Translations under genes and position numbers: made by a program
In this document: piece by piece, positions 11,735 to 57,154 of the stretch
How positions within the stretch are numbered: position 1 is the stretch's first letter
Layout: each line of letters begins with the position of its first letter
Notes under the pieces: generated by a model
What the model saw: only the letters and a program-made list of their open reading frames with translations
The model's database searches: none
What the model was told of the DNA's origin: nothing
Source of the DNA: Ryuthela nishihirai
Taxonomy: Eukaryota > Arthropoda > Arachnida > Araneae > Heptathelidae
Assembly: GCA_038380435.1 (NCBI GenBank)
Contig: JAWZYU010000006.1
Span: forward strand, 37,202,501 to 37,266,500
Direction: 5' to 3'
DNA length: 64,000 nucleotides

Positions 11735-11748
11735 GGGTTTTATTGTAT

Positions 11749-11930
11749 TTGAAATCCAAAGTGAATGCACAGTATTCCCTGTTAAGAAACAATAATTAAT
11801 AGATTCTGAAAAAAATTCATCGCCGCCACGGCGGGAATCGATTCCCGCCGTGGCGGCGATGAATTTTTTTCAGAATCTATTAATTATTGTTTCTTAACAG
11901 GGAATACTGTGCATTCACTTTGGATTTCAA
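11749..11930. repeat. Perfect 182-bp palindrome
   Basis: Arms 11749-11839 and 11840-11930 are exact reverse complements with no spacer. I checked them base by base. The centre is GGCGGGAATC/GATTCCCGCC. Confidence 0.93.
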
Positions 11931-12196
11931 TTATATATTTAACGCGGTAGCGTTAGCGACCTTCTCATTAACATCTGATAATCAAATGCAACGACTGTAA
12001 AACGTTGCATCTCCTTGAGTATAGATGGCGCTGTCTCAGTCACGTCTCAAGAAGAAAAACTTAAAAGGTCATATTCTGAAAATATTCGTTGTCCGACGCG
12101 TGGTGCAATGGTAGCGCACTCTGGCATGAATCTGGAGAGATGCGGGTTCGATTCCCGCCGTGGCGGCGATGAATTTTTTTCAGAATCTATTAATTA
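11750..12196 (+). mobile_element. Retroposed tRNA-like element with a perfect terminal palindrome, 15-bp TSD
   Basis: GGGTTTTATTGTATT occurs at 11735-11749 and again at 12197-12211, bracketing a 447-bp insert. The 3' part (12094-12196) holds a tRNA-like unit: box A-like TGGTGCAATGGTAGCG, stem CTCTGG/CTGGAG, and box B GGTTCGATTCC, then GGCGGCGATGAATTTTTTTC. The 5' part is a perfect palindrome (11749-11930) centred on TCGA, made from the unit's 3' end repeated in inverted orientation. The tRNA loop (GGCATGAATCTGGAGAG) resembles the SINE-C heads at 38 and 53 kb. The long TSD and Pol III boxes indicate LINE-mediated retroposition. Confidence 0.8.
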
Positions 12197-12211
12197 GGGT
12201 TTTATTGTATT

Positions 12212-13136
12212 AAGTGATATTGCAAAAAGGCTGTCTCTGTCTCTTACAGTTTTTCAACTTTTTGTTTTTAGAGTGAAAAATTTTTAGTTTTTTTTTTTTT
12301 ACTATAAATAGTACTAATGAACTATTGGGATTCATATTTTTGGAATCTTCCAGGTTTTAAATTCTGCCATTAGAGGACTCTAAAGTTGGAAAGTACACAA
12401 CGTGAAAGAAATATTATAAATGATTTATTGATGTTAGATGTTTGAAATTTTCATGGTAAAATGAAATGGTCTGGAGCAGGGGTCTGAAACTCAAATTATA
12501 TAGAGGCCAAATCAGTTACTTCTCAAAATATGGTGGACTGCATATTGTTTTTAAACAATAAGCTTCTACAAAGAAGTTGAAAACCACATTTAGTGATTAA
12601 GGTAGTGAATAGATGAAGAATTATTTGGTAACCTCTGTCTATTAAATATATTTGATTGGCATATATTATTCTGCTATGAGAATATTTAAACTCATTTATG
12701 TTTAGAAGGTTAAGGGTAATTTGTTCATAAGAATAAAGTGAGGATCGTATGTTACCATCTGAATTTTTAATATGGTAAATTAAATTTTACTACAACTTCT
12801 CAAAACATATGTCAGAACACCTTCAGTACTTCTAATGAATAATAATATGAAGAAGAGGTACAGTAAACATTCTTTAGGAGGAGAGTTTATAAAATCACTT
12901 TATTATAATGTAGTTTGCTTTTTAGCCAAAAAAAAAAGGAAAATACTTGCTAGGAGAAATTTTCTTACATATGATTTACCCCCACTTCCCATTAGGTACC
13001 TTTACTTTTGGCCTAATGCTGGTTAATATCAGTTGTCATTGACTTCTTATTGAACATGAAATTAACATTAAAGAAACTTGAAATAAGTATTAAACATGAG
13101 AACAGTTTCTTAAAATATCTTCATGTGAACCTGTGT
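12212..13136. other. AT-rich sequence with a possible hAT terminus
   Basis: AGCAGGGGTCTGAAACTCAA near 12475, followed by GAGGCCAAATCAG, resembles a common hAT-type end (CAGGGGTGTCAAACTC). No partner terminus was found. The rest is featureless. Confidence 0.35.
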
Positions 13137-24593: not shown

Positions 24594-27266
24594 CACATCT
24601 TGCATCACAAGCTTTCATTTGACATATAGCTGGTTGCTTTCAGCACACACGTTCAGGAGATATAAGGGAACAGTCATTTTCATATTTCACCCCTTTTAGA
24701 GGAGAAAGAACCAGGGTCAATATTTTATAGCCTGTGACACTCTCGCATCACAAACTTTCATTTGACACATAAATCATTAAATTTCTCCATCACGTTTGAA
24801 AGATGGAATAACTATTTTGACAAATCCACAAACCTACAAATGTCAAAATGGAAAGCAATAGGTAGATAGGTATTTTTTAAATTTATTTATATATACAGGG
24901 TGTCTCAAAAATATAGGTACAAACTTTTAGGGGAGGTAGATAACATCTAAAGGAATGAGAATTGCATAGGAACCCATAACCGGAAACGTCATGGGAAAGT
25001 GGTAGCAGAGGTACAAGATCTGAAAAGACACAAGACAGTGATTAATGGGAAACATTTATTGGACATAATTATTACAAATGGCATACTAGATGATACATTT
25101 CATAATGTTACAGCAGATGCTCGAATGTTCCACCATGAGACACGATGCATGCGTGACAGTGATGGAGCATTAATTGCCGGACACGGTCGAACACACCTGG
25201 AGTTTCTTTGATAGTAGCAGCAGCCCAGACAAGTCTTGCCACGAGATCCATGTCAGACTCCACAGGCGATTCATACATGGTAGCTTTAAGGGACCCCCAC
25301 AGAAAGAAATCAACGCTCATTAAATCAGGTGAGTGTGGGGGCCAGGCAACTGGTCCAGCACGCCCAATCCATCGTTGCCCAAAAGACATGTTCAAATGCG
25401 CACTAACACACCTTCCATGATGGGGAGGCACCCTATCATGTTGGAACCACATTTTGCTTCTCACATTTGCTGGAACATGGGCAAGTAAGCCTGGTAGAAC
25501 CTGTTCTAGAAAGATCAGATACTTCACAGAGGTCATGCGGGATGGTAAAAGGTATGGCACGACTAAGCAGTCGCCGACCAAACCTGCCCACACATTTACT
25601 GTGAAACAATGTTGTGCCACATGGGTGTGCACACTATGGGGGTTCTCGTGAGCCCATAAATGTGCATTGTGCTGATTGAATACGCCATCCTGAGTGAAAC
25701 TGGCCTCATCAGTAAACAAAACATAAGCTGGGAAATTCACATCTTGGGCACTTTCTTGGAGATACCACTGCGCAAAACACACACCCGTGCAGGATGATCT
25801 GCGCGGAGAAGTAACTGAACCCTTTGGAGATGAAAGGGGTGTAAGGACTCGCCATCCAAAACACGCTGTACACTGCAACGAGACACTCCTAAGGCAGATG
25901 CAACGGCACGTGTGCTGGTACTAGGATTAGTCTCCACGGCATCCAACACATTTTCTTCCATGGCGGGAGTACATGTCGATCGTGGCCTGCCCTCACTTCT
26001 GCTACCTCTTAATGACCCATAATCGTACAAATTTTGATGCACACGCGCAAACGGTGGCCCTGTACATGTCTGTATGGGAAGCATTCTTGATACATTCGTT
26101 GAGTGGCTCGTCCATTGTCCTCAGCTATTCCATACACTAAGTGCATGTCTGCCAGCTCCCTGTTCGAATACCTTTGCATGCACTTCGTCAGCTGACTACC
26201 GCTCGAATGAGGAAATCCGAAATTTCCCCTCTAGCGCACTGATGAATAGCGCTGCCTATTGACTTACGGTGACGTTTCCGGTTATGGTTTCCTATGCAAT
26301 TCTCATTCCTTTAGATGTTATCTACCTCCCCTAAAAGTTTGTACCTATAGTTTTGAGACACCCTGTATATATTTAACTATCTTCCTGTATGGGCCCAAAA
26401 AAGTAGAAAATCAACCTAAAGTAAATCAGTCACCGGGTTCATATTTACTTCAAAGGAAGTTAGGATGCGTCCAATCGTGTTGAGTAGGTAAATCGGCACC
26501 CTGTCTTCGTTTGAAGTGAATACGAACTCAGTGACTGATTGCACCATCAATATGCTTCTGGTTTATTTTCCATTTTTTAGGGCCCAGATACGTATTTTTA
26601 GAATTTTTTAATTTATATTTTGTCATTAAAATCACTTACCTTCAAAAACTTTCATTGGATATATAATTCACAAACATCAAACACATTTTCTCCCCTTTTG
26701 GAGTCATGTTTGAGGTAGTCCATGATGCTGGAGACATCACAAGCTTTAATTTGAGCTACAACTCGTTAAAGTCGAATTCAGCGGAAATCCACCTCCCCTC
26801 TCCTTTTATCAGGGGGGGGAATAGTGGGGCAAAATTCGAAATAGTTTACGATGGTTATTATATGAGCATTCATTTGACACCTAAATCGTAACTGTATGCC
26901 CTAGCATATTATAGAACGACTTACACATTTCCCGTTTTTAGGGGGGAAGAAAGAAGCATGGGGAGTCAATTTTTTTATAGCCTAGGACACTCCCCGTATC
27001 ACAAGCTTTCATTTGATACATAGCTTGTTGTTTCCGCACGCGCATTCTGGAGATATAGCGGAAGAATATTTACCATATTTCCCCATTTTAGGGGGAAGAA
27101 AGCATGGGGGGTAAATTTTTCTGGAACCTATAACACTCCGCATCACGGGCTTTCATTTGATAGATAAATCAGTAAGTTTCTCCATCGCGTTCGAAAGATA
27201 CGGTGGAACAACATTTTATGAAATCCACAAACCGACAAATGTCAAAGCCAAAACCAATAAGAAGAT
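24594..27266. repeat. Degenerate repeat array, split by a mariner insertion
   Basis: A motif close to CATCACAAGCTTTCATTTGA, then ACATA, recurs at about 24610, 24745, 26735, 26866 (weak), 26998 and 27142, with a weaker copy at 26650. It is often followed by CGTTCNNGAGATAT. The 24594-24877 and 26981-27266 stretches align over about 270 bp, each containing two motif copies about 130-145 bp apart and CCCCTTTTAG between them. The DD41D mariner at 24896-26365 lies inside. Confidence 0.6.
24896..26365 (-). mobile_element. Mariner-superfamily DD41D transposon, nearly intact (1,470 bp)
   Basis: Terminal inverted repeats of about 94 bp begin CAGGGTGTCTCAAAA and differ at only a few positions. TA duplications lie at 24894-24895 and 26366-26367. 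The reverse strand encodes the transposase. It starts near MQRYSNRELADMHLVYGIAE (about 26190), continues in another frame with RAVASALGVSRCSVQRVL (HTH), and then in the long frame 25878-25108 with LFTDEASFTQDG, WFQHDRVPPHH and WPPHSPDLMSVDFFLWG. Between the Asp of QHD and the Asp of SVD I count 41 residues, the DD41D (rosa/Visitor-like) signature. All three catalytic Asp residues are present, but two frameshifts (about 26050 and 25775) make this copy defective. Confidence 0.88.
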
Positions 27267-37998: not shown

Positions 37999-38163
37999 TA
38001 CAGTAAAGGTTCAAAAATCCAGAGTGCTTGGGGATTGGGATGGGCTGGATTTCTGAATTTTTCAGATTCTCAGGAGTAACTTTGAGATTCAAATTTAAAG
38101 AAGGATGAAGAAAAAGAAAACATGTAAATCATGATAGTTTTTTTACTCTGAAATAATACAGTA

Positions 38164-38717
38164 CTGTTGATAAATCAATAAATATTTTGCGGAAAAAATT
38201 TTGCTGACATACGGTACTTGAACCGACATCTCTCCAGAAAACATGCCAGAGTATTCTACCATTGAACTAATGCCAGCTCTGTCTTTTTTCCACTAATTTA
38301 GGCTTTAAACTATTCACCGAGATTTTTGGGCCAACTGTTGGTGCCATCTATGATATTGGATGGCAACTATTACTTTTAATATTGCACTGAGTAAGATGAA
38401 ATTAATAATAGTTTCTTCATGCTATTTAGTGTTATTAATGATTTAAACATAGACAATAATCACAGTGTTACCTGTTAACATTTGTAAATCACATTAATCA
38501 ATAGTTGGCCCAAAAATCTCAATGAAGAGTTTAAAGTCTTAACTTAGCAGAAAAAAAGACAGAGCTGGCATTAGTTCATTGGTAGAATACTATGACATGT
38601 TTCTGGAGAGATGTGGGTTCAATTCTTGTATGTCAGTGAAATTTTTTCTGAAAAATATTTATTGATTTATCAACATTAAAAAGTCAACAGGTAATGCTGT
38701 GATTGTCATCTATGTTT
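38164..38717. mobile_element. Inverted-dimer tRNA SINE (SINE-C), 11-bp TSD
   Basis: The duplication ATAATACAGTA at 38153-38163 and 38718-38728 brackets a 554-bp unit. The right half reads, on +, GACAGAGCTGGCATTAGTTC with TGGTAGAATAC (box A-like), CTGGAGAGATGTGGGTTCAA (box B-like), then AAATTTTTTC and TTTATTGATTTATC. The left half is the same module on the reverse strand. Upstream of both heads lies GTTGGCCCAAAAATCTC. The arms pair over about 170 bp, and a further piece of the right tail is inverted in the middle (TAAACATAGA near 38447). Confidence 0.85.
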
Positions 38718-38728
38718 ATAATACAGTA

Positions 38729-38925
38729 TGAAGTGGCCGAGTGGTTAGCACGCTTGGCTACTGATCTAAGGGACCTGGGTTTGAGCCCCGGATTAAGCAT
38801 GGATGTGTGTGTCGTTTTTCTGCTGAGGTCCTGCCATCCTCTCAGATCTCCTACTGTGGCATATAAACTGACAGGCTCCTGTCAGACCTCTGTGGCAAGC
38901 AGCTGCTTGAGGGGGTGTTTATTTT
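38729..38925 (+). repeat. SINE-B, full length
   Basis: GTGGCCGAGTGGTTAGCACG to TTGAGGGGGTGTTTATTTTT. It lies directly after the SINE-C duplication and inside the pogo-like element. Confidence 0.92.
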
Positions 38926-39667
38926 TTTTTATGAATTTAACCTAAAAATCATTCCCAAAAGAAACATTGTTATAAAAAAAAATTATTCCTTCATTTTGAT
39001 GACTTCATATGCATTATTTGTGGATGGAACACTTGTTCTATGTAGACATTTTTACAGCTTTTTTAAGAAAGTTTCTTATGTTGCTTTGTTTACAAGATTG
39101 TAATTTCTTTCTGATCAAATTGTTTTTCACCATAAGCACATGCATGGCATCTTGAAGACTGAAGCAGTGGTTATGTTCCACAAATTTTATGACATTTTCT
39201 ATACTCTTTTCTTCTTGAACTACATTTTCTTCCTCACCAGGATCTTCAAAACAGTCCTCTTATTTTTTATTGGGAATTAAATTTAGACAGAGGTTGATAT
39301 TCAGAAGATAATTTAGCAGTTTCCATCAGCTCTTGCATTTCCTGTTCTCTCTGTCTTATTTGAAACTCTTCAAAATCTTAGTCTTTATCTGACTCTCAAT
39401 CAGCCAATATCATGTTTGATCATAACTTTCACATGCTCTCAAAAGAGTTACAGGTTTTACCACCTCCCATGCATTCATTAATGAAAAAATTGTAAAACTG
39501 CATTGAAATTCTTGAGGTTCCATATTCTCATTTATCATGAAATCAGTTTTATAATGACACTTCAGTGCTTGAATAAGTGAGGTTATATTTAGTGGCAAAT
39601 AACAAACAAAAATATTTCTGCATTCAGACACTAATTTTGATTCATATAAGTGAGCCCTACAGTTATC

Positions 39668-40386
39668 AGGTCTGTAAGTGGTAGCTAGGCATAAGCTTGA
39701 AGGAGAGCCGTGTACCAATCCCCAGTGATGATGCACAGAACCGGCCAGGTTTGGTGCCTAATATCCAACCCCACCTTCTCGTGGTACAGGCCATTAGTAC
39801 TTTTCAAAAGAGATATTCTCTTTTGGAGGGAAACGGAAGGGGAGGGCTGCCAGTTCATTATGGCCTACTGATCTGGTCATCTATGGCCCCCTTTTTTTTT
39901 GTTTTAACCCTGTTGATGGGTCCTGGTGCTGTATAATAGTTTGGTTCTTTCTAAGGTTAGTTATGGTAGCGAAACATAGACCCTTTGTAAGCAGGATAAC
40001 AAGAAACTGATGCCTTTGATTCTAGATGCTTAGACAGTATCTTAGGCATTAGGTGGTTTGACTTTGTAAGTAATGATGAGGGTAGAAGAAAGAGTTGTCA
40101 ACCTCCTTTGAGCAGCATATTGTGCAGAGAGAGACTGCATTGATTTGGCCATGTTGCCCTTATGCATAGCTGCAGATTGGGGAAGAGGATTATGAATAGT
40201 GTACCGAGGGATATCAGAAAAAGGGGAAGACCTAGGATGCGATGGGCAGACAATATCAAACAGGACCTTGCTAGAATTGGCCTGGAGTGGCCAAATGCAG
40301 CAGCTGTAGCTCAAAAGTGACACGTCTGGAGAGGAAAATTACACAATCTGGTTGGACCTTCGTAGTTCATGGTTACATGAGGATTT
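39668..40386 (+). mobile_element. Internally deleted LINE inside the pogo-like transposase
   Basis: The 5' UTR (GGTCTGTAAGTGGTAGCTAG to CTGTTGATGGGTCCTGG) is fused near 39930 to the RT C-terminus (ATAATAGTTTGGTTCTTTCT onward; YGSET, LRLRWFGHV equivalents are degraded). The whole endonuclease and RT core are missing. Its insertion splits the pogo DDE domain. Confidence 0.8.
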
Positions 40387-41518
40387 TGTATGTTTGTATG
40401 TGTAGTGATCGAGAAGTAAAAATCACTTTGTATATTTAGGCTTCCCCAATTTGATTAAGTTCTGATTAACAGATGGAACAAAATGACTAATGAACCAATC
40501 TTGAAATATTTTTTGTCCATCCAAGCATTTTTTTTTTTGTGCTTTATAGGTGACAGGCAAGTACACAATTCCATTTAAGGCCCTTGGACTCTGAAATTTG
40601 CCAATCACCAAAGCTCAATTTTTTGCTGACCTCTGAAGCATTGGGACATATAAGAACTGTTAATCTGCTCTTGTTAGGTTTCAACTCAGTAGCATTTCAT
40701 TCTATACACCTATCCAAAGTTTTAGTTGGCAAACACTTCCAATAAACCCTTGTTTCATCAGCATTATAAATTTGATTGGCTGTGAGGTCATAATCCTTAA
40801 TAATTATCTCAAATGTTGTACTGTGTTTTGTAGCTACTTCTGCATCTGCTGACTGCTTTCTCCAGCAATATGTAACTGCCTAATGCCATGATGAATCTTG
40901 AATTTCTAAGCCATCCATCAATAAATGAAGATTCAGATTTAATGTTCATTTGCTTCTTAAAAAAAAATGCTTTAGCTATAAGAATAGGTCCATAAATTGC
41001 CATACCTTCTGATTGTTTTAGAAAAAAAAAATCATTCATGCAATACTTTATCAAGGTTTTCTAGTTTTGGTTTATGCAAACCTTTTCTTTCAGCAATTTT
41101 ATTAATAGGTTCCAAAGATGCAGTAAATTCTAAAATTTTCATCTTTGCATTCTTTATATCATAAATTGTTGACTTGCCTATTTTGTAAGTTTCCATTAGA
41201 ACAATATTGCTTTCACCACACTCTATTTTCTTAGCTATTTCAAGTTTTTCACTCAGTTTTAATGTGGCGTTTTTTTTTTCCTTTCTTTTAACACCATGAA
41301 TCTACTTTTGGAGCCATTATTATGGGGTTAATAAAAATTTGTAAATAGTATGTGTAAGCTGCATATGTAAATGAAAGCAGTAGGACAGCAAATAATACAC
41401 TACAGTATTTAGTGTTACCACAGATCGACTGTGACTTATATGTTTCAAAATCTTGAATCATCACAGATGAAAATAGAGTTGCCACAAAGCACCATTGGTG
41501 CTTCAACCAGAATTCTCT

Positions 41519-42290
41519 AATCCTCCTCCTCCTCAAGCAGCCATGGCCTACGGAGGTCCAACCAGACTGTGCAGTTTAATTCTCCAAGCATACCTGTCCT
41601 GAGCTACATCTGCTGCATCCGGCCACTGCACACCAATTCTAACAAGGTCCTGTTTGACATTGTCTGCCCACCGCATCCTATGTCTCCCCCTCCTTCTGAG
41701 GCCTCTAGGCACATTGTTCCTCCTTCTAGGCACATTGTTCATAACCCTATTCGCCAATCTATAATTATCCATATGGGCAACATGGCCAAACCAGCGAAGT
41801 CTCTCTCTGCACAATATGCTGCTTAAAGGAGGTTGCAGACTCCTTTGCCTAACCTCATCATTAGTTACAAAGTTAAACCACCTAATACCCAAGATACTAC
41901 GTAAGCATCTAGAATCAAAAGCATCTAGTTTCCTGTTATCTTGTTTACACAGCATCCAAGTTTCACTACCATAACTAACCCTAGAAAGAACCAAACTATT
42001 ATACAGTCTAATTTTAGTCTTTAGGTGTATGCGCCTATTTCTCCACAATCTTCCTAGATTCTTAAAATTCCTGGCAGCAATCCCTATTCGTCTGTTAATC
42101 TCATGCCACACATCACCATTATCTGTTACATAGTTCCCAAGATAATTAAATTGTGACACCTGCTCAAGACTGCAGCCATTCAGATGAACTGAATCACAAC
42201 CTGCCTGACCAATTTTCATCACTTTAGTTTTCTCTCTATAACCTATGGTTTACCATCTACTCTCCTACCAGTCTCATCAATAATCTAATA
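41519..42290 (-). mobile_element. LINE 3' end (reverse) with open RT C-terminus
   Basis: The reverse frame 42222-41548 is open for 224 codons: MMKIGQAGCDSVHLNGC, FNYLGNYVTDNGDV, RLYNSLVLSRVSYGSETWML, LRWFGHVAHMDN, RHRMRWADNVKQDL. Just upstream, text corresponding to ETGRRVDG appears to about 42290. The 3' end carries a GAGGAGGAGGA run. It has a 12-bp tandem duplication (CTAGGCACATTGTTC at 41703 and 41727). It is 5'-truncated, with no catalytic RT core, so it cannot be active. Confidence 0.86.
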
Positions 42291-42398
42291 CATTGGGAAA
42301 ATAACAGACTGTGAAATTCACAATAGTTTGCTGATAAAAAGTCCAAATTCTTGTGTTGTCTGGATTTCTGGGGTCCAGATTTTCAGACTTTTACTGTA

Positions 42399-43567
42399 TT
42401 ACAATTATCAACACTAAGTGTTTTTGATGGACACCCAATTTTATTTTGGGTTTCATTTACTTAAGTAGCAATGTATTTGCATTCTTGTTTGGTTTACCAT
42501 CTATTTCAGTTCTTGTTTGGTTTACCATCTATTCAGTTACAGTTAGCTGCAAGTCATGGTTTTCCTGTCAAAGTGATGTTATATTATTGTATTTAGGATT
42601 GTTATATTATTGATATATAAGTCATGTTATATTATTGTAGTATGTTCAATTATTTAAAATTTACAAAATTTCAAACAATAATTCTAAACTCCTTAGTTGC
42701 TGTCATCTACAGACACTCCACAGTGTGTGTTTTTAGTGCAAAATTAATAATTGCATATGTATTCATTCTGGCATTTGACATTTTCCTTGCTATAGCCATC
42801 AGTTTTCAATCAGGACCTGACTATTTGAATAAACATGAAGCTCAAATCAACAAATTAACTATTATAATGGACAAAGTTATGTATGAAAAACAAGAGTGTC
42901 AACTGCAGCAGAATCACTATCTTAAGCTTTGAGGAATTTATTTAAGAAGTTCACAAGATTCCCAAACGAGGTTTCACATTAAAAATTCTTTTGTGGCTTT
43001 CAGAATTCACATGAATATCAAAAATCCTGCAACTTCATTACGCATTGTTATACCAAGGTATGTTCCTGGGCCACTGTGATATGTTCAGCCTTTCCATTTA
43101 TTCTTCAACACAACATCCTGGATATTTGCTTTCAAATTGTCTGTGTGTATGGACTTTTATGCGTGATATGTATGAATTACACAAAACAGTGAAAAGAAAA
43201 ATGACTTGCAGATAAATAAATAAATTACAAAAAGCCACACCTCTAAAACTTGATAACATATGAAACAATTTTTGACAAAAAATGACTACTGAAGATGTGG
43301 TCAAACTAGTAGACCATAAAATGCTTCTAGGATCATAGCAGAGCAGACACATCTAGCAGCAAAATGGTAATGCATCACATCCTTTCTTGCCATTGTTACC
43401 ATTACTGTTGGATTGTACTACTACACTTTGCTATGTTTTATTAATATACAATGTATTAGAGTTTTATTAAATTTACAAAATATGATACATGGTAAGTACA
43501 CAATTGGCCATTTTGCGAGTAACTTCTTGCTCACATTGTTAATTTTAATTTACTCTCAATGATAAGT
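42399..43567. other. Intronic AT-rich sequence, no gene recognised
   Basis: Small private duplications at 42485-42535 (TTCTTGTTTGGTTTACCATC twice) and 42580-42640 (GTTATATTATTG). The frame 42624-42932 is unsupported. Confidence 0.5.
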
Positions 43568-43579
43568 TATCTAATAATA

Positions 43580-43979
43580 CGGGGCGGGGGTGGCTCAGTC
43601 GGTAGTGCGCCAGCTCGTTCCCAGGTTCGAGTCCCAGCTGGGTCAGCGTTGAGATTTATCTCCGCAAAATTCCCCGCCCTGCCCACGGTCAGTAGGGGAC
43701 ACCGATGGGCTTGGAAAGGCCGCCGTCCGTCGGATGGGACATTAAGCCGTGGCCCCGTGTGCGGGAGAGCCATACCCTGTGCACGTTAAAGAACACGCTG
43801 GATGGCCTTGACGGGAGGCTACCATCTGTCTCCCAACAGCTGTTCCAGTGGGTCCCCTCCCCCAACCTTCTCTGAGCTTTCGGGGTCCATGTGACCTCCT
43901 CCTTTTTGCACACAATGAGCATTTAGCCCATTGTGTGCAAAAAAGTGCCGCTCAGAGGTAAAACAACCCAACCCAACCC
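43580..43979 (+). repeat. SINE-A copy, 12-bp TSD, partly deleted tRNA head
   Basis: TATCTAATAATA at 43568-43579 and 43980-43991. About 18 bp between box A and box B are missing (GCGCCAGCTCGTTCCC). A short inverted duplication near 43902-43945 (TTTGCACACAATGAGCATTT against CCCATTGTGTGCAAAA) is private. It is CpG-rich. Confidence 0.95.
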
Positions 43980-44019
43980 TATCTAATAATATACACTGAA
44001 AAACAATTTATTATACATG

Positions 44020-45005
44020 TTCACCTAATAAAGTGTGGGTCCATCTTTCTCCTTCATAACAGCCACAACATATTGTGGCATGGACTCTACCAGGTTTGGG
44101 AATATTAGGGTGGTGTAGCCCATGATTCTAGGACCGAGAGATGCTGGTAGCCAGTTTCTGGTTCAAACACTTTACTACACTTCATCCCACAGATGCTCAA
44201 TAGTGTTCAAATGCAGAGAGTGAGAGGGTCATTCAAGGATTGTGAATTCACTGGAATGCTCCTCCAATCAGTTCTTTGCCAAATAGGCATGCTAAGATGG
44301 AGCATTGTCTTATCAAAAGAAAGCATCCAGTTGTGTAAAATAGATAGCCATGAATGGGTGTAGGTAGTCAGCAAGTACATCAGCATAATCTTGTGCAGTG
44401 ATGGTAGTTTCAAGAGGCTACAAGGTGGCCCATGTAAATATGCCCCACCATTACACCACCTCCACTGTCCTGCAACACCCCAACTTGATGGCCTGGGCCA
44501 GCATCGAGATTTATCTCAGCAAAAACCCCACCCTGTCCTCAATCAGTAGGATATACTAATGTGCTTGGATAAGCCCCCATCTGTTGGATGGGATGTTAGC
44601 CATGTACAGGGAACTATTACACATTAAAGAAGAAGCTGGATGGCCTTGATGAGAGGCTAACATATGTCTCCCAATCATGTTGGGGGGAGGGGGTCCAGTG
44701 GATCCCTTCCCCCCAACCTACTCTCAGCCCTCAGGTTCCTTGTGACCTAGCTATTTAGCCTGTGGTGTGCAAAAAAGTGCCATTCAGAAGTAAAATAACC
44801 CAACTTGACAGTTTTGGAGTCCATGGCCTCATGTAGTGTGTGCCACACACAACCCATAGGTGTGTTGTAGTTGGAAACTCAATTCATCAGACCAAGCTAC
44901 CTATTTCCCGTCTTCCATGGTCCATTGGTGATGTTCCTTCATCCATTGCACCCAGTGGCATATTGTTTACAAGGGTACTCAATATGGACTTTGACTGCCA
45001 TTGCC
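44020..45005 (-). pseudogene. Tc1-like remnant interrupted by a SINE-A
   Basis: TTCACCTAATAAAGTGTGGG at 44021 is a Tc1-like terminus and relates to the end at 13141. Reverse-strand blocks such as CTTCATCCCACAGATGCTCA and ATTCATCAGACCAAGCTACC (44885) correspond to usual Tc1 transposase coding text (PIEHLWDE and SDE-type segments). It is heavily mutated, with the SINE at 44495-44806 in the middle. Confidence 0.65.
44495..44806 (+). repeat. SINE-A, lacking the tRNA head
   Basis: Starts GGGCCAGCATCGAGATTTAT and ends GTAAAATAACCCAACTT. Inserted in the Tc1 remnant. Confidence 0.85.
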
Positions 45006-45011
45006 CAGTCA

Positions 45012-47310
45012 AACATTTCCTGTTCTAAGCATTTCCATAATAATTTCATCCATCCCTGGGGATTTATGTAGTTTAAGTTTAGAAATTCCAAAATAACTTC
45101 AGACTGTGTTATAGGGCAACCTTAAAACCAGTAATACATCTATCATCGTTACAAACAATGGGAGTAGAATTAACCACATTGCTTAGAACATCACTGAAAT
45201 GCACGGCCCACCTAGCCATGACAGAATCCTCACTTTCTATAACCTTACCTTGTTTATCCTTCAATCCCTGTATACCTGTCAGTTTTCTACCATACGAAAC
45301 ATTAACGATCTGTACAACTCTCTGCTGTTGTGCTGTCTAACTGCTTCCTCTGCCTTGTCAGCTAACTGATCCTTTACACGTTTATTAAGCTCTCTGTAAT
45401 CCTTTCTATTAGGACTAGTAGGGTACTGATTAAAGACATTCCTGCAGTTCCTCTTTCTGAAATAAGCTCAAGTGCCTTATCACTCAAATAATTCTGCCCC
45501 CTCTGCTCCTTTTTTCCTAAAAGAATACTGTTAGTTTCCAAAAAGCCTGTTTAAAATTGCCCCATTCTTCCTCAACTTCAGTAGTAAGCAAACCATGACT
45601 GTCATAATGACTAAGTAACCTATCATGGTAAGCTTTAGCTATAACTGGGTCTTTCAGAGCATCAGAATTAAAGGTAATTTTTTAACCTTAGCACAACTCT
45701 TTTTAAGTTTAAGTTGCAAGACACTTTTAACAAGGTAATGGTCAGATCCAATTTCAAGTCCTCTATATGCCCTGGTATTTCTAACAGAACTAGCTCATTT
45801 GCTGTTAATATATAATCAATCATATTATTTATGCAGCCCATCAGGTGAAACCCATGTGTTCTTATGTATGTTGCAGTGTTTGTAATAAGTGTTAGTTATT
45901 CTGAAACCATTGAATTTACTTACCTGTAGGAGACGTTGCCCATTGCCATTGCAGCTACCGATACCAAAAGGGCCTATCACCCCTCCCCAAAGGTCAGAGT
46001 CAGTATCAACTTTGACATTGAAGTCACCTAGAACAAGGATAATATCTCCTTTCTTGACAGAATTCAAAATATCCTGAAGTTGTCTTGGAAGACATCTAAG
46101 AAATGATAGCAATTTGCATCTTGGGAACTTTTTATAAATATAAAAGTCTCATTAAGTTATAGTTCACCATGATAACTAAAATCATAGCTTGGCTATGTGA
46201 AGATAGTGTTAAGCTTAATGTAGACTAGTTGCTCAAAAGTCTTTGGTCATACAGCACAATTGTGAATTAAACATTTTTTAAAACCTATCCTTCTTATCCT
46301 CATCAGCATCCTCAGTGGGGGCATAACAGCAGATAACATTCAAGCCTTTAACTCTTGTCTGAAATTTTGCTATAAGAAATCTTTCATTAATGCACTCATA
46401 TCCTAGAAGAGCATCGCTAGTGTGTCTGCTGAGAAGCATACCCACGCCTTGGTGATGCTTTTTGTCGTCCCTCCCTGAAAAGAGAAATTTAAGATTATTT
46501 TTAAGAATCTGAACTTTATCTGTTCATCTGGTCTCTTTCAAGCCGAGAATATCTAAATTATAATGGTGGAATTCTTGTGTGAGGACATCAAGAGAAAAAG
46601 CTCTGTGCAGAGTCCTCACATTCCAACTACCTATGGAGAGAAAATGGTTAGTGGGATGTTTAAAGAAACTATGTTTATTGAGAGAGGGAATGCCGACAAT
46701 ATCAAACAGCCCCCTAATCGCAGACATGGGGCAAAGACCCATTCCCCCACCACTAAAGTCTGAAGCCATCTACACTGGAAGATTTCCTCCAATGTAGAAT
46801 TTGACGATGCCAATAGAAGCAAAGAGTTCAGGTGCCTGCGATGACCTCTGCTCAGGATTATCCACCAGCTGATAAACATATCCTGTGAATCTATTCATTT
46901 GGGGCTGTCAACCCACAAACAAACAGAAAACACAGCAGAAGATTTTCCCTCCACAGAAACCCACCAGTGGAACAAATTCAGGATCCATAATCAAGCTCAG
47001 AGCCTTCAGTCCAGTAGGTTTATATGGTCAGCACCAGGACCCTCTGTTAGTGACCACTCCTCAGCAGGGTAGAAAAAAAGTATCCATAGTTGTCCAGGTC
47101 AGTAGGCCACACTAATCTGGCAGCCCTCCCCTTCCATTCGCTTTCAGTAATTTCAGTAACAAGAGAGTAGCTCTTTTGAAAGGTACTAAATGGCCTGCAC
47201 CACGAGAAGTCGGGCTCAGACATTAGGTACTAGGCCTGGCTGGTTCTATGCATCATCACAAGGGATTGGTGCATAGTTCTCCTTCCAGTGACTACCTAGC
47301 TACCATATAG
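45012..47310 (-). mobile_element. LINE copy with endonuclease domain (longest in the window)
   Basis: Read on the reverse strand, the 5' end is near 47310 (TAGCTAGGTAGTCACTGGAA). The ORF then begins at 46769: MASDFSGGGMGLCPMSAI, IGSWNVRTLHRAFSLDVL, LDILGLKETR. After a short break, 46112-45825 reads KGDIILVLGDFNVKVDTDSD, the catalytic GDFN block of an APE endonuclease. Downstream, the inter-domain and start of the RT region are degraded to about 45012, and the RT core and 3' end are missing. Several frameshifts. The family resembles RTE/BovB-type LINEs by the SWNVRTL and GDFN motifs. Confidence 0.85.
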
Positions 47311-48138
47311 AGGCCAGGCATTATATTTGTTCACAAATATAGGGTAACATTATTCTCTGACATCCTGCATTTAATGTGTAAATGATAGGGTGGTCTATTT
47401 TAAACACAGTTTTTCAGTGAGTTTCTGAAATCTGCTGAACTTCTTAGTATTTTTCAGGAACATGTCTAGCTATGATTTCACTCTAGTAAGTTTTGCATTC
47501 CATTGCTTTGAATAACATCAATTAAATCTTTCTGAGGTACTGCAAACATTCATGTGATCAACAGTGCTATTTTTTTCAGATTCTTTAAAATTCATGTATA
47601 ATATTTCTATTTCTTGTTTCATAACTGAATATTACTTTTAAATTACTTTTTATCTGATGAATAGAAAGCTTTTATTTCTTTTATTGCATTAAATAATGTG
47701 AATCTTTAAATGAGAAATAACATAAATTTTGTTCCTCATATATTTTTATTACTGAATTTAAGTATTGGGTTAAACTGACTTTAACTTCAATGGTTTGAGT
47801 TACAGCAATTCTCTATTATGAATGAAACACACATGGAAAAACAAACGGGAGGTGAGTTATTGTGCGGCTTCTGTCCTCTTGCTTGCTTGGAAGGAAGACT
47901 ATTTTCTAAAAATTCACTTTAAATCTTTTTTCCTAAGTATAAAATTCTTTGTAAATCACTAATTTAATTTGATGCATTAGGTTTTATGAAATATAATATA
48001 AAATTATATATATTTCATGAGGCAAAAAACAGTAGTTTTGCTTTAAAAGTTTAATATTAGGACTGAAAACTTAATTAGTTTAATAAAAGGACTGAAAACG
48101 TGACTTAGTGTGAGTACTAATACCAAGGAACCTGTCCA
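47311..48138. other. Intronic AT-rich sequence, no gene recognised
   Basis: No coding frame or repeat family supported. Confidence 0.5.
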
Positions 48139-48560
48139 AGGTTCGGTTGTTTTACCTCTGAGCAGTATTTTATTTGCATACAAGCTAAATGGCCAGGTCA
48201 CAAGGGTTGGGCTGTTGTTTAACCGTAAAATGGCACTTTTTTGCACACAATGGGTTAAATTGTCAGGTCACAAGGACCCTGAGGGCTGAGAGAAGGTTAG
48301 AGAAAGTAGACCCACTGACAATTGTTAGGAGACAGGTGGCACCTGTCAAAGCCAGGTTCTTTAACATGCATAGGGTTTGGCTCTCCTGCACAATGGGCCA
48401 TGCATGGCTTTCACTCCATTCGATGGACAACAACATTTTCAAATCGATCAGTATCCCCTTTCTGACTAAGGGTAGAGTGGGGATTTAGCAGACATTAATC
48501 TCGATGCTCACACAGATACTTGTGCCTGGTACTACTGAATGAACCAACACCCACCCCAGT
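48139..48560 (-). repeat. Two SINE-A pieces, one inserted in or beside the other
   Basis: A tail fragment (GGTTCGGTTGTTTTACCTCT to GGCCAGGTCACAAGG, 48139-48205) is followed at once by a second, more complete but diverged copy starting with its own tail (GTTGGGCTGTTGTTTAACC). Confidence 0.75.
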
Positions 48561-48867
48561 ATTTGCCTGCCCAGCTGAACCATCACCAAATAGTAACTAT
48601 GGTTTTAATACTTTATTTTTTTAAAAATTCTTCTTCTATTTAAGTACATCATGCAATGTGCACTATTAAACTCCCTACAAACTTCTGGAAAAGTTTGCAA
48701 CAGTGCATCAAAAAGAAAACTGGAAAATCTAATCATCTTTCCTGAATATGGAATGCTCATTTTCAAAGAGAAAAAAAAACATTGTTTGCTTTTGCCTAAA
48801 TTAAGTCCCTCTAATGATGTAAACTCAAACTACTGGAAGATTTGAAAACACTGAATACAGTTGTTCT

Positions 48868-49142
48868 TTAACATACACAGCATATGGCTCCTTTCGTCGT
48901 TTTATTTGATGGACAGCACCCTTTCCTTATATCGTTTTATTATTTCTACCATTGAACTAATGCCCTTTCCTTATATCGTTTTATTTGATGGACAGCACCC
49001 TTTCCAAGCCCATCTTGTCCCCTCTGATTAAATGCAGGATGGGGGTTTAGTAGAGATAAATCTGAATACTGGTAGTGGGATATAAACCTGGTAACTGCAG
49101 ATTACAAGCCTAACACAAAACTGACTGAGCCAACTCCTGCCC
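48868..49142 (-). repeat. SINE-A fragment with internal duplication
   Basis: GTTCTTTAACATACACAGCA to AACTGACTGAGCCAACTCC. ATTTGATGGACAGCACCCTT occurs twice (48905, 48985), separated by CTACCATTGAACTAATGCC, which is the reverse of a SINE-C head. Confidence 0.75.
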
Positions 49143-50527
49143 TCACTATTGTATTAGTATATTGATATTGTATTTGCCCTAATCCCACCCAGAAAAAATT
49201 TTCAATTTGGCACCTAGAACAAAAAAAGCTGCATCTTTAATTTCCCTGGCAGTGAGAGAGTAAGTTTCTATGGTCAATGTAAACTCCTTGCTTACTACAT
49301 GTACCAGTAACAGAATTTCAAATTCAAATGAAAGTTACTTAAAGCCTTATTTTAAAACATGATAGACTGTTTGGAACTTTAATTGAGATAATTAACAATG
49401 GTGTTAAAAATACTGTAGAAGATATTCCACCAAATTTTTAAATTCTTTTGTAAATAGACTATTTACAATATTCATATAAAGTTTACACACTTTCCAACTT
49501 TAGAGCTTCCATCTTCCGAATGAGGACTAAAAGATGCAGAAAATTTGAATATTTTATTAATATAATCCATCCCAAAAAAGAATTTTTCATTTAGCTCTTA
49601 AAACAAAAAAAGTTGAATGTCTACAATAGATGACAAAATGAAAACAAATAGCTCATTAAAAAACAGTGCTAAAAAAAGTCATGATACGGATTTTTGTTTC
49701 ATAAATGCCATGTGTCCTGCAATGACCGCAGTCAGCTCTCTATAGCCGAAAGCAAGCACTCTCTTGCTTATAAGTGACTGAAGATGTGCAGCAATTCCTG
49801 CTGCTATTTGCATTCATTGCAAAAAAAAATACAATTTGACCCACAGCTGATGAAGGCAATTTGAAGACGTCCAAAGTGTTTTGTTCTTACTGCAAGATGT
49901 GACCTAATCAAACTATTACCCAGATGTAAGCTACCATATGTCCTTGTTTTCTTATTCATGTTCTCACTTAAAGTGTCCAAAGAGAATTTATAATTCTTTT
50001 AAAAAGTAACTCGGCAACACCAGAATCTGTGGTGTTATCAACTTGAACACATTAATAAATGATATGTGCTTCATTTCTGACATAACTATTTTTTATTTGC
50101 ATGACCTTTATGCTTGTATATATATATCATAATTGCAGGGTTAAGTTCCAAAATTCAGTCGTTTTTCTGTTGAAAAAAAAAAAAAAAAAATTGATCTTGC
50201 CCACAATTGCATGCATTGTGAGAAACCTGACACTTTAAGGCTAAAGAGTTTAAAACTAATTGTTTTAAAATTAAATGCTTTACTATTAAATAAAAAATAC
50301 CAATTAAGTATTATTCTTTAATCAGTTATATATTTATGATACAGAATTTATAGACTGATTGCTCATACAGTCAAATCCTGCTAGTTATAGCAGGGGGACT
50401 GGTAAAACCTATTGCTATAGACAGTGGGTATAAACTAAACATTTGAAATATTTTGGTGTAATTTCAAAAACTTTCTCTAAAATTTTGTAATACCAAGAAA
50501 CAACTAAACTATGCAATTAGAGAGATA
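49143..50527. other. Intronic sequence, no gene recognised
   Basis: Contains an A-run at 50175-50190 and weak inverted text near 50370-50440 (AGTCAAATCCTGCTAGTTAT) that may be a decayed pogo-type end. Nothing firm. Confidence 0.45.
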
Positions 50528-50540
50528 TATATATGGAATA

Positions 50541-50722
50541 GCCGTCCCGTGGCCGAGTGGTTAGCACGCTTGGCTACTGATCTAAGGGACCTGGGTTCGA
50601 GTCCCGGATTAGGCATGGATGTGTGTGTTCTGCTGAGGTCCTGCCATCCTCTCAGATCTACTGTGGCATATAAATTGACAGGCTCCTGTCAGACCTCTGT
50701 GGCAAGCAGCTGCTTGAGGGGG
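50541..50722 (+). repeat. SINE-B, full length, 13-bp TSD
   Basis: TATATATGGAATA at 50528-50540 and 50723-50735. Head GCCGTCCCGTGGCCGAGTGG. A 10-bp deletion in the body (GTGTGTTCTGCTGAGG). Confidence 0.95.
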
Positions 50723-50735
50723 TATATATGGAATA

Positions 50736-51764
50736 AGAATTTTTATTTTTAGTCATTTGCACTCATTCACAACTAATTTCATTGTGATTCCTCTATATTA
50801 TGCTAATTGTGTATTTTTGTACAATATTGTGACAAATGTCTGACTGGCTGTTTATTATGTAATTTTTTCCCATTTTTTTAATCTTGTATTCCTTTTGCTA
50901 GACATACTATTAATTAAAAAACCACCCACAGATCAAAATGTAAAAGCATCTTTACTGTCATACCACACAATAAAAATGGTCATATGACTGAATAACACTG
51001 ATAATCAATGGGTGATCTTTGTGCTCTTATAGAAGGAACTCACTCCTTTGCAGTTCTTTCATCTACAGAAAATAAAGTCAAAAGTCCAGTATTATGGTAT
51101 GTCTTACACCGGGTGACATGCATCAACCATGTGTCTTTATAAAGCAAGGTAGAATAGAGTTGAACCAGTGAGTTGCTTTAGTGCTGATGTGACATTAAAA
51201 ACCTTTTAGGTAATAAGCAAATCATTAACAAGGAGTGGAATGTTGCACCCTATTTTATTATCTATCTAGAGCCCAGAATGTGACATTTGTGAACCTTGTT
51301 CTCAACAATTCGAAAGGGAGGTTTCGAGCATGATTGGGCAACCTTTTCTCATCAGCAGACCAGATGAGTTTTCAGAATGTCGTGGACCAAAACTTTAATT
51401 ATTGCATAAAACACTCTGACCCCTCTAATCCATATCCAATTCTCTGAGTAGATTATATATATATAATCAAGGTAATTATAACCTTAATTAGAAGTATAAA
51501 ATATAAATGCTAAATTTTTACATGTACATATTTATTGCAAAAAAGAATAAGAGAATTAAATATACAGAAGTAAATACATAATTAGGATAAAAATAATATA
51601 TGCATTTTAATGACTTTTGCAGTTGAACATTTTTCACAAGATCATTGCTAAAATTTGGTAGGTTATTACTTAAAGCAATGTGTTGGCATCCACTACCTTT
51701 CAAAGAAAAAAATATTGAATTTCACAAATTGCTTAAGAATTTAAAAAATGGGGCAATAATTTGC
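50736..51764. other. Intronic AT-rich sequence, no gene recognised
   Basis: No coding frame or known repeat supported. Confidence 0.5.
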
Positions 51765-52005
51765 ACAGCAAATAGCCATGAGCTATTTGGAAACTGCATG
51801 CAGATCACACCTAGCCTGTGAGTCATGGATTTCCCATGACTGGTGTCAGTCGAGCCTCACCCAAAGTCCAAGCATGGGAGTAATTTGTACAGCAAATAGC
51901 CATGAACCGTTTGGAAACTGCAAACCGGTCACACCTGGCTTGCAAGTCATGGATTGCCCATGACTGGTATAGGGATTAGAGCTGGAGCCCTTCCCCAAAA
52001 TTCAA
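51765..52005. repeat. Two diverged tandem copies of a roughly 125-bp unit
   Basis: Each copy runs from AGCAAATAGCCATGA through TTTGGAAACTGCA, TCACACCT, AGTCATGGATT and CCCATGACTGGT to TCCAAGCATG or TTCAAGCATG. No similarity to other repeats here. Confidence 0.75.
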
Positions 52006-52284
52006 GCATGAAAATTTGAAAAAAAAAAAAATCATTAGTCTGTGAAATTGCTTTCTGCACATATTGGATGATTTTTTTGACTTGTTATTAATCTGTTTTA
52101 TGTAATTATTCTATTTAGTGTAATTGGTGACATAGTCATTCTCTGTAGAGGAGTTAAATCTGTAATCCCCCTCTTGGCTATGCCAGTGTATGTAATTATA
52201 AACTTCATAAATAAGTAAAAAAATAATGTTCCTTTATACAATTTTTTCCTTTCATTTTTCACCATCTCTCATTTTACACTCTGT

Positions 52285-52605
52285 TGTAACACACTGAGAT
52301 TTATCTCCCCTAAACCCCCACACTACCTTTGGTTAGAAAGGGGTTAATGATGGGCTTGGAAAGGCCATTGTCCATCAGATGGGACATTAGGCCATGACAT
52401 CTTGTACAAGGGAGTCATACCCTGTGCACATTAAATAACACCCTGGATGACCTTGATGGGAGGCTTCCATCTGCCTCATAGCAGCTATCCAGTGAGGCCC
52501 CCTTCCTCTAACCTTCTCATAGTCCTGGGGTCCTTGTGACCTGACTATTTAGCCCATTGTCTGTAAAAAAAGTGCTGCTCAGAGATAAAACAACACAACT
52601 TTATA
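52285..52605 (+). repeat. SINE-A, lacking the tRNA head
   Basis: CACTGAGATTTATCTCCCCT to AGAGATAAAACAACACAAC. It lies 300 bp before THAP exon 2. Confidence 0.85.
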
Positions 52606-52918
52606 GCATCTGACAAAAGTATTTTCTGGCCGTGTGCTTCAAAAGGGACATATGTCAGGTCAGTTAATGAGTAAAGTAGAATATTTCTGTATACTCCATT
52701 TGTACCATTTTCCAATTTGCATGCATACCTAAGTAATTTGGTACCATCAGCAACTCAGCATGCTTTTCTAAAATGTCAACTTACATGTTCTGTATTTTGT
52801 ATTGTTGCATTTATATATATTATATTGTTTGCATATAAAAGTGGAATCATGTAGAAATATGAATTATAAAATTATGTGAAATTTGGAACAAAGAGTTTTT
52901 ACCTGCCTTTTTTAACAG

Positions 52919-53095
52919 GTGTACAAATGAAGCGTGCCAAACTGAAAAATGTTGCAATTCCATCACAAAAGTTGCCTGAACTTTTGAATCAGAAGATACT
53001 TAACAAAACAAGCAAACAAATCAATTTAAGCAATAAACCATTGAAGAAACTATGTACTACAAAGAGACCAATTATAACAGTAGTGAAAGCAGAAG
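52919..53095 (+). CDS. THAP gene B, exon 2: end of the THAP domain plus basic linker
   Basis: The acceptor is TTTTTTAACAG after a pyrimidine tract and the donor is GAAG|GTAGGA. Entered in phase 1 from exon 1 (G+GT = Gly), it reads VQMKRAKLKNVAIPSQKLP, then a Lys/Asn/Leu-rich stretch ending TKRPIITVVKAE. LKNVAIPS is the AVPS-type C-terminal THAP motif and aligns with LRPNAVPS of gene A, followed in both by a K-LP. The downstream part is basic and has no recognisable domain; it may be a flexible or nuclear-localising linker. Intron 1 is about 19.3 kb and full of transposons. The join is supported by phase and domain completion, not by transcript data. Confidence 0.75.
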
Positions 53096-53397
53096 GTAGG
53101 AAATAATACTGTTGTGGCCCAGCATGACGTGATGTAATTTTTTTTAGGTTTTGCCTAAGTCACTCAGAATTATTTTGTTTGATAATTATATTTCGTATTT
53201 AATTGCTGTGAATACTGATAAGAATACAGTAATAGTTATTATTTTTTCTCCAAAAAATTAAGCATATATAACTGTTTTAAAGTGCAGTACAATTTATTAG
53301 GTAGAAAACCCAGTTGATATTCTTCAACATTGGTGTAGTTGGTAAGTAGATGGTCAGTTTGTGGGTATGTTGGTTTCCTTTGGTGAATTAATTTCTT

Positions 53398-53945
53398 TAA
53401 TAAATAGTTTGTGAAAAAAATTTTGCTGACATGCAGGACTTGAACCTGCATCTCTCCAGAAACATTCCAGAGTATTCTACCATTGAACTAATGCCAGCTC
53501 TGTTTTTTTACCACTAATTTAAGACTTTAAACTCTTCACCGAGATTTTTGGGCCAACTGTTGGTGCCACTATGATCTTGGGTGGCAACTATTACTTTTTA
53601 TATTGCACTGAGTAAGATGGAATTAATAATAGTCTCTTCATGCTATTTAACGTTATTAATGATTTAAACATAGTGATAATCACAGCATTACCTGTTGACT
53701 TTTTAACATTGGTAAATCAATAAATCAACAGTTGGCCCAAAAATCTCAGTGAAGAGTTTAAAGTCTTAAATTAGTGGAAAAAAAGACAGAGCTGACATTA
53801 GTTCAATGGTGGAATACTCTGGCATGTTTCTGGAGAGATGTGGGGTCAAGTTCCATATGTTGGTGAAATTTTTTCCGCAAAATATTTATTGATTTATCAA
53901 TATCAAAAAGTCAACAGGTAACGTTGTGATTGTTATCTATGTTTA
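53398..53945. mobile_element. Inverted-dimer tRNA SINE (SINE-C), second copy, 12-bp TSD
   Basis: AATTAATTTCTT at 53386-53397 and 53946-53957. The 548-bp body is collinear with 38164-38717 over its whole length, including the same inverted arms (left head reversed near 53450-53505, right head at 53787-53870) and the same middle (GCACTGAGTAAGATGGAATT). Different flanks and TSDs show that the dimer moved as one unit. It is in gene B intron 2. Confidence 0.88.
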
Positions 53946-54287
53946 AATTAATTTCTTGTTTGGTGTGCTCTAATGCAGGCAAGATCTGAAGCACACAACC
54001 ATTGGGTCTATTATTGAAGAACAACTGATTTAAAAATAGCTTATAAGCTACTCTTTATCACTGCACAAAACTTCTTAACCATCTCACAGCACCTCCAACC
54101 TCTTTTTTTATTTTTAGATCAAAACTGTAATCTTTTTTTTTTACTATTAATCTATAGTTTTTACTATGTTAGAATATGTAAGTAAAATTTCCTAATCACA
54201 ATATTATGTAAGGTATGGATGTTTAAATTTATCTATATACCTATATTGGCAAGACAGTATTTTGACTTCTGGAGATTCATACTACAC

Positions 54288-55900: not shown

Positions 55901-56233
55901 AAAAGGTGCTTGATACTCATATTCATTAGACTAATAATGTTAAATGGCTGTGGGGAAAAAAATCTTACTTCTATCTATTGGGTAATTACAAATGAATATA
56001 ATTATTTTAAATATTTATATATTTTTTTTATATGTAAAGAGATGAGAATCATATTGAACGTTTGTAATTGTTATTTGGTATGTAAGAAAGTTCATAAGTG
56101 TTCTCTCAAAATATGTAGGATTTGCTGATGTTCCATTTATAGTTTTTTTTTTTAAAGTAAGACATTTAAATTCATTACCTTTATTTGTAATCACTCAGTA
56201 TTTGATTTACTCTTAATAATGTATATGGAGATA

Positions 56234-56990
56234 CACTATGTTGAAAAAAGTATCCCAACACTTTCATGTTATGTGAATGGAAAGCCACTTTCAAAGCTCC
56301 CCAACATTGAAAATAAACTTTTTATGCAAAAACTGTTATTGGCGATAAATTGTAGATGCCACTCAAATCTCTCTAAATATATTTCCTGCAATATTCGTTT
56401 AATATTTAAAGAATGAATGGAAGCTGAAGCATTTATCTTCAACTTTTGACACTTGTGAAAAATACTTCAATAGATAAAACACAACTTTTATAACAATTTG
56501 TTCACTAACGTAAATTAAGTATCTGAAGTTTGTATGACAATTTTTTAAGATTTCATCAATTTGGAGGCAATGTGACAATGTCAATTTTCAACAATCTTCG
56601 ATCAATATTTAAAGAGTCATTGAAGCGGGACAGCAGATGACACTGCCACATTGCCACCAAATTGATGAAATCTTGAAAAATTGTCATACAAACTTCAGAT
56701 ATTTAATTTATGTTAGTGAACAAATTGTCACAAGAGTTGTGTTTTATCTATTGAAGTATTTTTTCACAAGTGTCAAAAGTTGGAGATAAATGCTTCAGCT
56801 TCCATTCATTCTTTAAATATTAAACGAATATTGCAGGAAATATATTTAGAGAGATTTGAGTGGCATCTACAATTTATCGCCAATAACAGTTTTTGCATAA
56901 AAAGTTTATTTTCAATGTTTGGGGAGCTTTGAAAGTGGCTTTCCATTCACATAACATGGAAGTGTCCGGACACTTTTTTTCAACATAGTG
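56234..56990. mobile_element. Fold-back Tc1/mariner-type MITE with about 350-bp arms
   Basis: Arms of about 56234-56582 and 56638-56990 are inverted repeats with high identity (for example TTTATCGCCAATAACAGTTT against AAACTGTTATTGGCGATAAA), around a roughly 55-nt loop. Ends CACTATGTTGAAAAAAGT are flanked by TA (56232-56233, 56991-56992). There is no transposase. It lies 165 bp before THAP exon 3. Confidence 0.9.
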
Positions 56991-57154
56991 TATGTTATCA
57001 TCTGCTTTTTTTATTATTCAAATTGTGAGTTTTTAATGTATTATGAAAGCTAATATAAATTTTTGTTCAATCTATTTGAGTAAGGCAATATTTTTTGCAG
57101 ATAAAATGATGGCTAAAAAATGACTGACTCAAAATCATATTTCATTAAATACAG

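Follow-up and report, generated by a model that had tools for sequence, protein, structure and literature searches.

Head-to-head tRNA-bearing retroposons of the spider Ryuthela nishihirai probably insert by Penelope-like machinery

Among described retroelements, those that most resemble the repeats reported here in their manner of insertion are the Penelope-like elements (PLEs). In rotifers, as described in excerpts of PMC3846280, Penelope copies consist of tandem units with mostly head-to-head inverted pseudo-long terminal repeats (pLTRs), one of which optionally carries a 31-bp tail, and target-site duplications of 9 and 10 bp are given for PLEs in excerpts of PMC3846280 and PMC11167929. 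For an anole PLE, both target strands are cut and extended at AT-rich targets, reverse transcription begins internally, at two neighboring sites that delimit the tail, and a hammerhead ribozyme is unnecessary in vitro (PMC11167929). Having established internal initiation and two-strand extension in vitro, that work left the later insertion steps for validation (PMC11167929). Here we analyze a 64,000-nt stretch of the Ryuthela nishihirai genome (contig JAWZYU010000006.1, positions 37,202,501–37,266,500), hereafter the window, which contains two head-to-head elements with sequences resembling transfer RNA (tRNA), e1 and e2, and one copy of a younger sister family. With a probability of about 0.8, we regard these repeats as tRNA-bearing non-autonomous retroposons moved by PLE machinery, with both target strands priming reverse transcription.

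Elements e1 and e2 are each enclosed by a perfect target-site duplication, of 11 bp for e1 (ATAATACAGTA, 38153–38163, identified from the sequence and its exact flank match; second copy at 38718–38728) and of 12 bp for e2 (AATTAATTTCTT, 53386–53397; second copy at 53946–53957). The original prediction had placed the elements at 38164–38717 and 53398–53945, with two inverted tRNA-bearing arms inside the duplications, and sequence and Rfam bear this out. Positions are numbered along a repeat unit, u1–u328, with two sites, S near u275 and T near u327, and arms are named after the site at their outer end. In e1, a minus-strand S-arm (38164–38498; outer end u283, inner junction ∼u267) meets a plus-strand T-arm (38499–38717; inner end u109, outer end u328); e2 likewise has a minus-strand S-arm (53398–53725; outer end u272, inner junction ∼u267) and a plus-strand T-arm (53726–53945; inner end u109, outer end u327). 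tRNA-like sequences above the Rfam gathering score lie in the e1 T-arm (38565–38637, plus strand, 31.8 bits) and the e2 S-arm (53425–53497, minus strand, 46.5 bits), a weaker match in the e2 right arm (27 bits) stays under that score, and the tRNA-like sequences of both elements point outward. Aligned over 551 bases, the two elements share 88.4% identity, and the arms of e2 are 87.9% identical to each other when one is inverted. In a self-comparison of the window this likeness stops at the element ends and does not extend into the flanks; the pair is therefore not a segmental duplication. The shared "middle" described earlier is present in both elements, but it is not a separate module: it comprises the rest of the unit and the right-end sequence (X) copied in inverted orientation, an arrangement that arises because the element consists of ∼328-bp tandem units, and most of it falls within the e1 S-arm, whose length is one unit plus a little.

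The family to which e1 and e2 belong, here the old family, is built from this ∼328-bp tandem unit in the order M, tRNA arm, X, as seen in 38 fetched loci; the tRNA-like part spans ∼u173–u246, with an A box at u181 and a B box at u225. These loci came from a genome search with e1, in which the best 40 of 6231 first-look candidates were scored. Because the query contained the whole dimer, they favor its junction and its length, and we rejected their near-constant total length and frequent u110|u265 junction as real traits, attributing both to query selection. A second search therefore used one arm and M only (window 38177–38445), with the best 40 of 4333 candidates scored. Counting pieces no more than 450 bp apart as one element, this unbiased set comprises 38 separate loci, 15 fetched earlier and 23 new; L035, among other fragments, was counted with a flanking piece, and its core element has identical end types. 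Head-to-head arms were found in 33 of the 38 loci, a single arm in five and a tail-to-tail arrangement in none. The sampled copies form a real mobile family in which head-to-head arms are the rule, as had been anticipated, but not without exception. Array structure also varies, with three direct units plus inverted ones in L030. In the S-arm of another locus (L041:1482–1848), ∼u196–u235 of the tRNA-like part recurs about every 42 bp.

The outer ends of these elements are fixed: one arm stops at S and the other at T, ∼50 bp further along the unit. Across both samples, 58 of 63 old-family loci are head-to-head, and 49 of the 50 with both ends classed combine one S end with one T end, none being T+T. 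The class windows (S, u262–u292; T, u312–u14), which were set after inspection of the data and cover 62 of the 328 unit positions, take in 108 of 116 outer ends compared with 13 of 64 inner ends in the unbiased set, the latter matching the chance rate. Inner ends, mapped in 32 loci of the unbiased set (L035 left out; the arms of L043 lie 425 bp apart), range from u35 to u328 in S-arms and from u2 to u318 in T-arms, that is, over the whole unit. Junctions show short overlaps or gaps, and S and T change sides relative to similar junctions ("swapped" pairs). Given variable inner junctions and fixed outer ends, the most plausible reading is that every insertion builds the inverted form anew. The proposal of an inverted dimer that moves as one unit therefore does not hold in general, and on this reading the puzzle of a self-folding template raised with it disappears, since the inversion would be made at insertion.

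Target sites are consistent with staggered cutting of both strands. Exact duplications range from 9 to 15 bp across families, and in 29 of 50 old loci the duplication scores above the 99% level obtained with mismatched flank pairs. The flanks of 43 duplications show A on the left at −3/−2 (frequencies 0.65 and 0.49) and T on the right at +2/+3 (0.44 and 0.58), a symmetric pattern expected if a single motif is cut on both strands.

A young sister family, overlooked in the original prediction, provides a sharper view of the junctions. Its window copy (11750–12196) lies between 15-bp target-site duplications (GGGTTTTATTGTATT, 11735–11749; right copy 12197–12211) and consists of a minus-strand T-arm (11750–11837; outer end ∼v96 by BLAST, inner end v1 in the T-arm of the tRNA itself) and a plus-strand S-arm (11838–12196), which holds one 310-bp unit (11838–12147) plus 49 bp and ends outward at S. 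The two arms overlap by 4 bp, the copy is a 98.9% palindrome centered in the tRNA T-arm, and the tRNA-like sequence of its unit (12094–12166, plus strand, Rfam 41.1 bits) has A and B boxes, and a run of seven T comes after it. A genome search with this family, in which the best 40 of 995 candidates were scored, found nearly identical arrays, and 20 of the 39 other listed loci were examined with short flanks (15 single-unit matches and five query-like loci). Of these and the window copy, 21 in all, 19 are head-to-head and two have one arm (L079 and L085); arms are 97.1–100% identical to the window unit and extend up to ∼5 units (L072 and L074). All 18 loci with both ends in view (the left end of L074 lies outside the fetched stretch) have S+T outer ends, with S at v46–v63 and T at v92–v102, and 17 of the 18 carry exact duplications of 10–15 bp. 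Thirteen of 19 junctions differ from all others. The remaining six cluster in the tRNA T-arm and belong to the window copy and the five loci chosen as query-like. Junctions that differ despite almost identical units are the clearest sign that the inversion is made at insertion. The S–T regions of the young and old families are alike when judged by an anchored score, which 42 of 5000 shuffles reached, and less clearly so by a global score, reached by 153 of 2000.

The same genome contains PLE-type copies, some with comparable ends. A consensus of the PLE-type GIY-YIG endonuclease had 150 genome matches at E ≤ 1 among 1765 candidates (best 2.5e-14). A Pfam GIY-YIG genome search at E 0.001, a threshold too strict for PLEs, returned a single place, L070, which presumably represents the host gene SLX1; this match adjoins LINE-like frames (LINE, long interspersed nuclear element). 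Eight loci of one group, PLE-A, were retrieved (L091–L098), two of which have stops in the endonuclease stretch, and the PLE-A copy L093 is head-to-head with inverted arms unequal by ∼57 bp. For a second group, PLE-B, 40 scored places of 355 candidates for the 3' region yielded eight outward-facing pairs and no inward-facing pair within 5 kb. In one pair (C17), the arms are 96–97% identical, the left end lies at TTTATTAAAGA, the right arm is 31 bp longer and a 12-bp duplication, GATGACATGGAC, occurs on both flanks; in another (C5), the sides are swapped relative to C17, the tail is ∼34 bp and the 12-bp duplication is TTTTCAGAAAGG. Thus both PLE-B pairs whose ends were examined, of the eight listed, have S+T-type ends and a 12-bp duplication.

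Like PLEs of the Penelope/Poseidon type, the two tRNA families combine tandem, mostly head-to-head units with a tail at one end and duplications at AT-rich targets. They differ in their 310–328-bp unit, which bears a tRNA-like sequence and in which no long frame was seen in either family, and in the near-absolute occurrence of one S and one T end. The position of their tRNA-like sequence bears on the nature of the template RNA. The sole sense-strand run of at least four T is six T at u251 in the old consensus and seven T at v27 in the young window unit, in both cases just after the tRNA and before both S and T; a normal RNA polymerase III (Pol III) product would therefore stop before the observed insertion ends. 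The outward Pol III promoters noted in the original prediction are present, but a Pol III product is unlikely to be the template, which would instead be a read-through tandem RNA.

On this basis, we propose that a tandem read-through RNA of units would be bound by a dimeric PLE protein, and that both target strands would be cut 9–15 bp apart. Each cut strand would then prime reverse transcription inside the RNA, one at S and the other ∼45–50 nt downstream at T, making S and T the putative start sites of reverse transcription. The two complementary DNAs would extend back through anything from part of a unit to several units, halt at variable points and be joined end to end. This would yield head-to-head arms, one ending outward at S and the other at T, with a variable junction between them, a variable number of units and a target-site duplication.

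Several observations weigh against a PLE-based origin. The tRNA families show no significant sequence link to PLEs, and the enzyme is therefore assigned by its insertion signature. When the S–T region was compared with PLE-B, 1243 of 5000 shuffles reached the anchored score of the young family and 2026 that of the old family; the global scores were reached by 291 and 234 of 2000, and window controls stood at 378 and 764 of 3000. Earlier comparisons of PLE ends with the units were likewise null (57–265 of 500 shuffles), and the units showed no convincing likeness to PLE-A loci. One of eight comparisons, of the whole doubled old unit with a PLE, gave 2 of 200 shuffles. A shared 8-mer near T, TACTGTGC, is treated only as a lead. 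The PLE evidence itself has gaps: the endonuclease query was a hand-written consensus (Pfam scores it as GIY-YIG at 27.3 bits), no reverse transcriptase frame was seen in L093, L097 and L099, the three PLE loci with listed frames in which it was sought, L093 lacks a duplication of at least 7 bp, and searches of Pfam and PDB at E 1 and of a protein database found nothing resembling the PLE-B frame, whose connection to PLE-A rests on 19 shared residues of 43 in the endonuclease.

The tRNA families also deviate from the expected pattern in some respects. Their tail, the S-to-T excess, measures ∼43–52 bp compared with 30–40 bp in published PLEs. Exact duplications of at least 9 bp were found in only 26 of the 49 old S+T loci, one head-to-head old locus (L068) is S+S, eight have one unclassed end, and five show one arm (L048, L053, L059, L063 and L067), although a very short second arm could escape detection. 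No hammerhead was found with Rfam at the gathering score across the window, at E 5 in eight loci or at E 10 in window 11700–12230, nor in a core-motif scan of the old and young units; a whole-genome search for hammerhead families was uninformative, as its controls were silent too. Because the anole PLE can do without a hammerhead in vitro, we do not treat the lack of a match here as disqualifying.

The strongest competitor is the model of the original prediction, in which an inverted dimer of fixed structure is the master copy and a single hairpin RNA serves as template for the entire dimer. Window elements e1 and e2 speak for it and count against inversion at every insertion: they have the same end types and junction (u267|u109) and share 21 differences from the unit consensus compared with ∼1.4 expected by chance, part of which resembles subfamily variants or gap artefacts. 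Given this common junction and the excess of shared differences, this particular pair may be a copied dimer; in a comparison of the A core, the e2 right arm was absent from the five nearest relatives of the e1 right arm. Six young copies with a common junction region in the tRNA T-arm, and the many dimer-query matches with junctions within 4 bp, also fit a master, but both groups were selected by or for likeness to a junction-bearing query, and in the sample unselected for a second arm junctions span the whole unit. Inverted arms are slightly more alike within a locus (87.0%) than between loci (85.2%), yet the nearest neighbor is the same-locus copy for only 5 of the 81 arm copies that have one; an arm phylogeny, which bears on dimer inheritance, is near star-like. 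As swaps of S and T at similar junctions are also unexplained by a single master, we consider this model unlikely as a general account.

Still less likely is a tRNA-derived short interspersed nuclear element (SINE) mobilized by a LINE, with 5' inversion by twin priming or snap-back. The tRNA-related sequence with A and B boxes, the 9–15-bp duplications and the junction overlaps and gaps, as in end joining, are all compatible with it. However, twin priming is known to fix one end only, whereas both outer ends here are fixed and different; the T-run after the tRNA precedes S and T, and the head-to-head form is the rule rather than an exception. We agree with the original prediction that such a layout is unusual for a SINE, and we rejected a LINE-type SINE identity on the two fixed outward ends. 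A foldback or miniature inverted-repeat transposable element (MITE)-type DNA transposon with long inverted repeats and a tRNA acquired by chance is the most improbable of these accounts. Variable tandem units in a palindromic layout are known from foldback elements, and the window holds another palindromic repeat (56231–56993), but exact duplications here vary in length from 9 to 15 bp and the termini differ by the tail, S on one side and T on the other, which leaves no matching terminal inverted repeats.

Other described elements share individual features with the tRNA families. Metazoan non-LTR retrozymes (LTR, long terminal repeat) are likewise 150–450-bp tandem non-coding units for which excerpts of PMC7229834 and PMC7761336 propose PLEs as movers. 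Their defining feature is a type I hammerhead, for which the scans above gave no match in the tRNA families, and we rejected a retrozyme identity on this ground; the word "inverted" is absent from the main text of PMC7229834. tRNA-derived SINEs (SINE2) are also short and of high copy number and have a tRNA-like sequence with A and B boxes, but the tRNA families differ from them in having two fixed outward ends and head-to-head arms, a tRNA in every tandem unit and a T-run ahead of the ends. Helenus terminal-repeat retrotransposons in miniature (TRIMs), as presented in excerpts of PMC10886601, carry a tRNA-like sequence within a non-autonomous retroelement and differ in being LTR elements with a primer-binding site, a polypurine tract and 4–5-bp duplications. 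Short non-autonomous Penelope elements are reported from heliconiine butterflies, for which excerpts of PMC6685494 describe neither tRNA content nor the structure of the ends. In the open-licence literature searched, as far as its accessible portions extend, no tRNA-bearing or SINE-like element is assigned to PLEs.

The window also contains other repeats. The 763-bp palindrome at 56231–56993, with arms 92% identical, is probably ordinary, its ends resembling what we take to be a mariner-type MITE. A ∼190-bp tRNA-Ser-like SINE occurs in many copies (38733–38928, 31822, 35287, 50549, 1213, 5614, 18277, 22096 and 33884), one of which begins 4 bp past the right duplication of e1. A ∼390-bp repeat is present in both orientations (3002, 3612, 21426, 28661, 29147, 30114, 36369, 43581, 44493, 48203, 52295, 59828 and 61432), and a repeat of similar size interrupts the PLE-A copies L093 and L094. 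Two overlapping, apparently broken transposase frames on the minus strand (25108–26120) are presumably mariner-like, and at 48944–48964, inside an imperfect tandem repeat, 21 bp match the tRNA arm exactly.

The kind of insertion seen here is probably a known one, PLE-like insertion, the novelty being a tRNA-bearing non-autonomous form that works like PLEs and is probably moved by them. We further favor, with somewhat less assurance than PLE involvement itself, the view that these families represent a kind of SINE dependent on PLEs rather than LINEs, in which a tandem RNA is copied at once from both nicked strands from two adjacent starts. If so, the strict pairing of one S with one T end would imply a set division of labor within the PLE dimer, each subunit using its own start site, and the role of the tRNA would lie in RNA recognition or processing more than in promoting the template. 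Because ends, junction and duplication are visible at each locus, the dual-priming model can be tested by counting. Such abundant, short and partly near-identical insertions would record how a poorly understood class of retroelements inserts, provide a mechanism for inverted SINE-like repeats otherwise ascribed to chance or recombination, and define a tRNA-bearing class that searches for LINE-type SINEs could mis-annotate.

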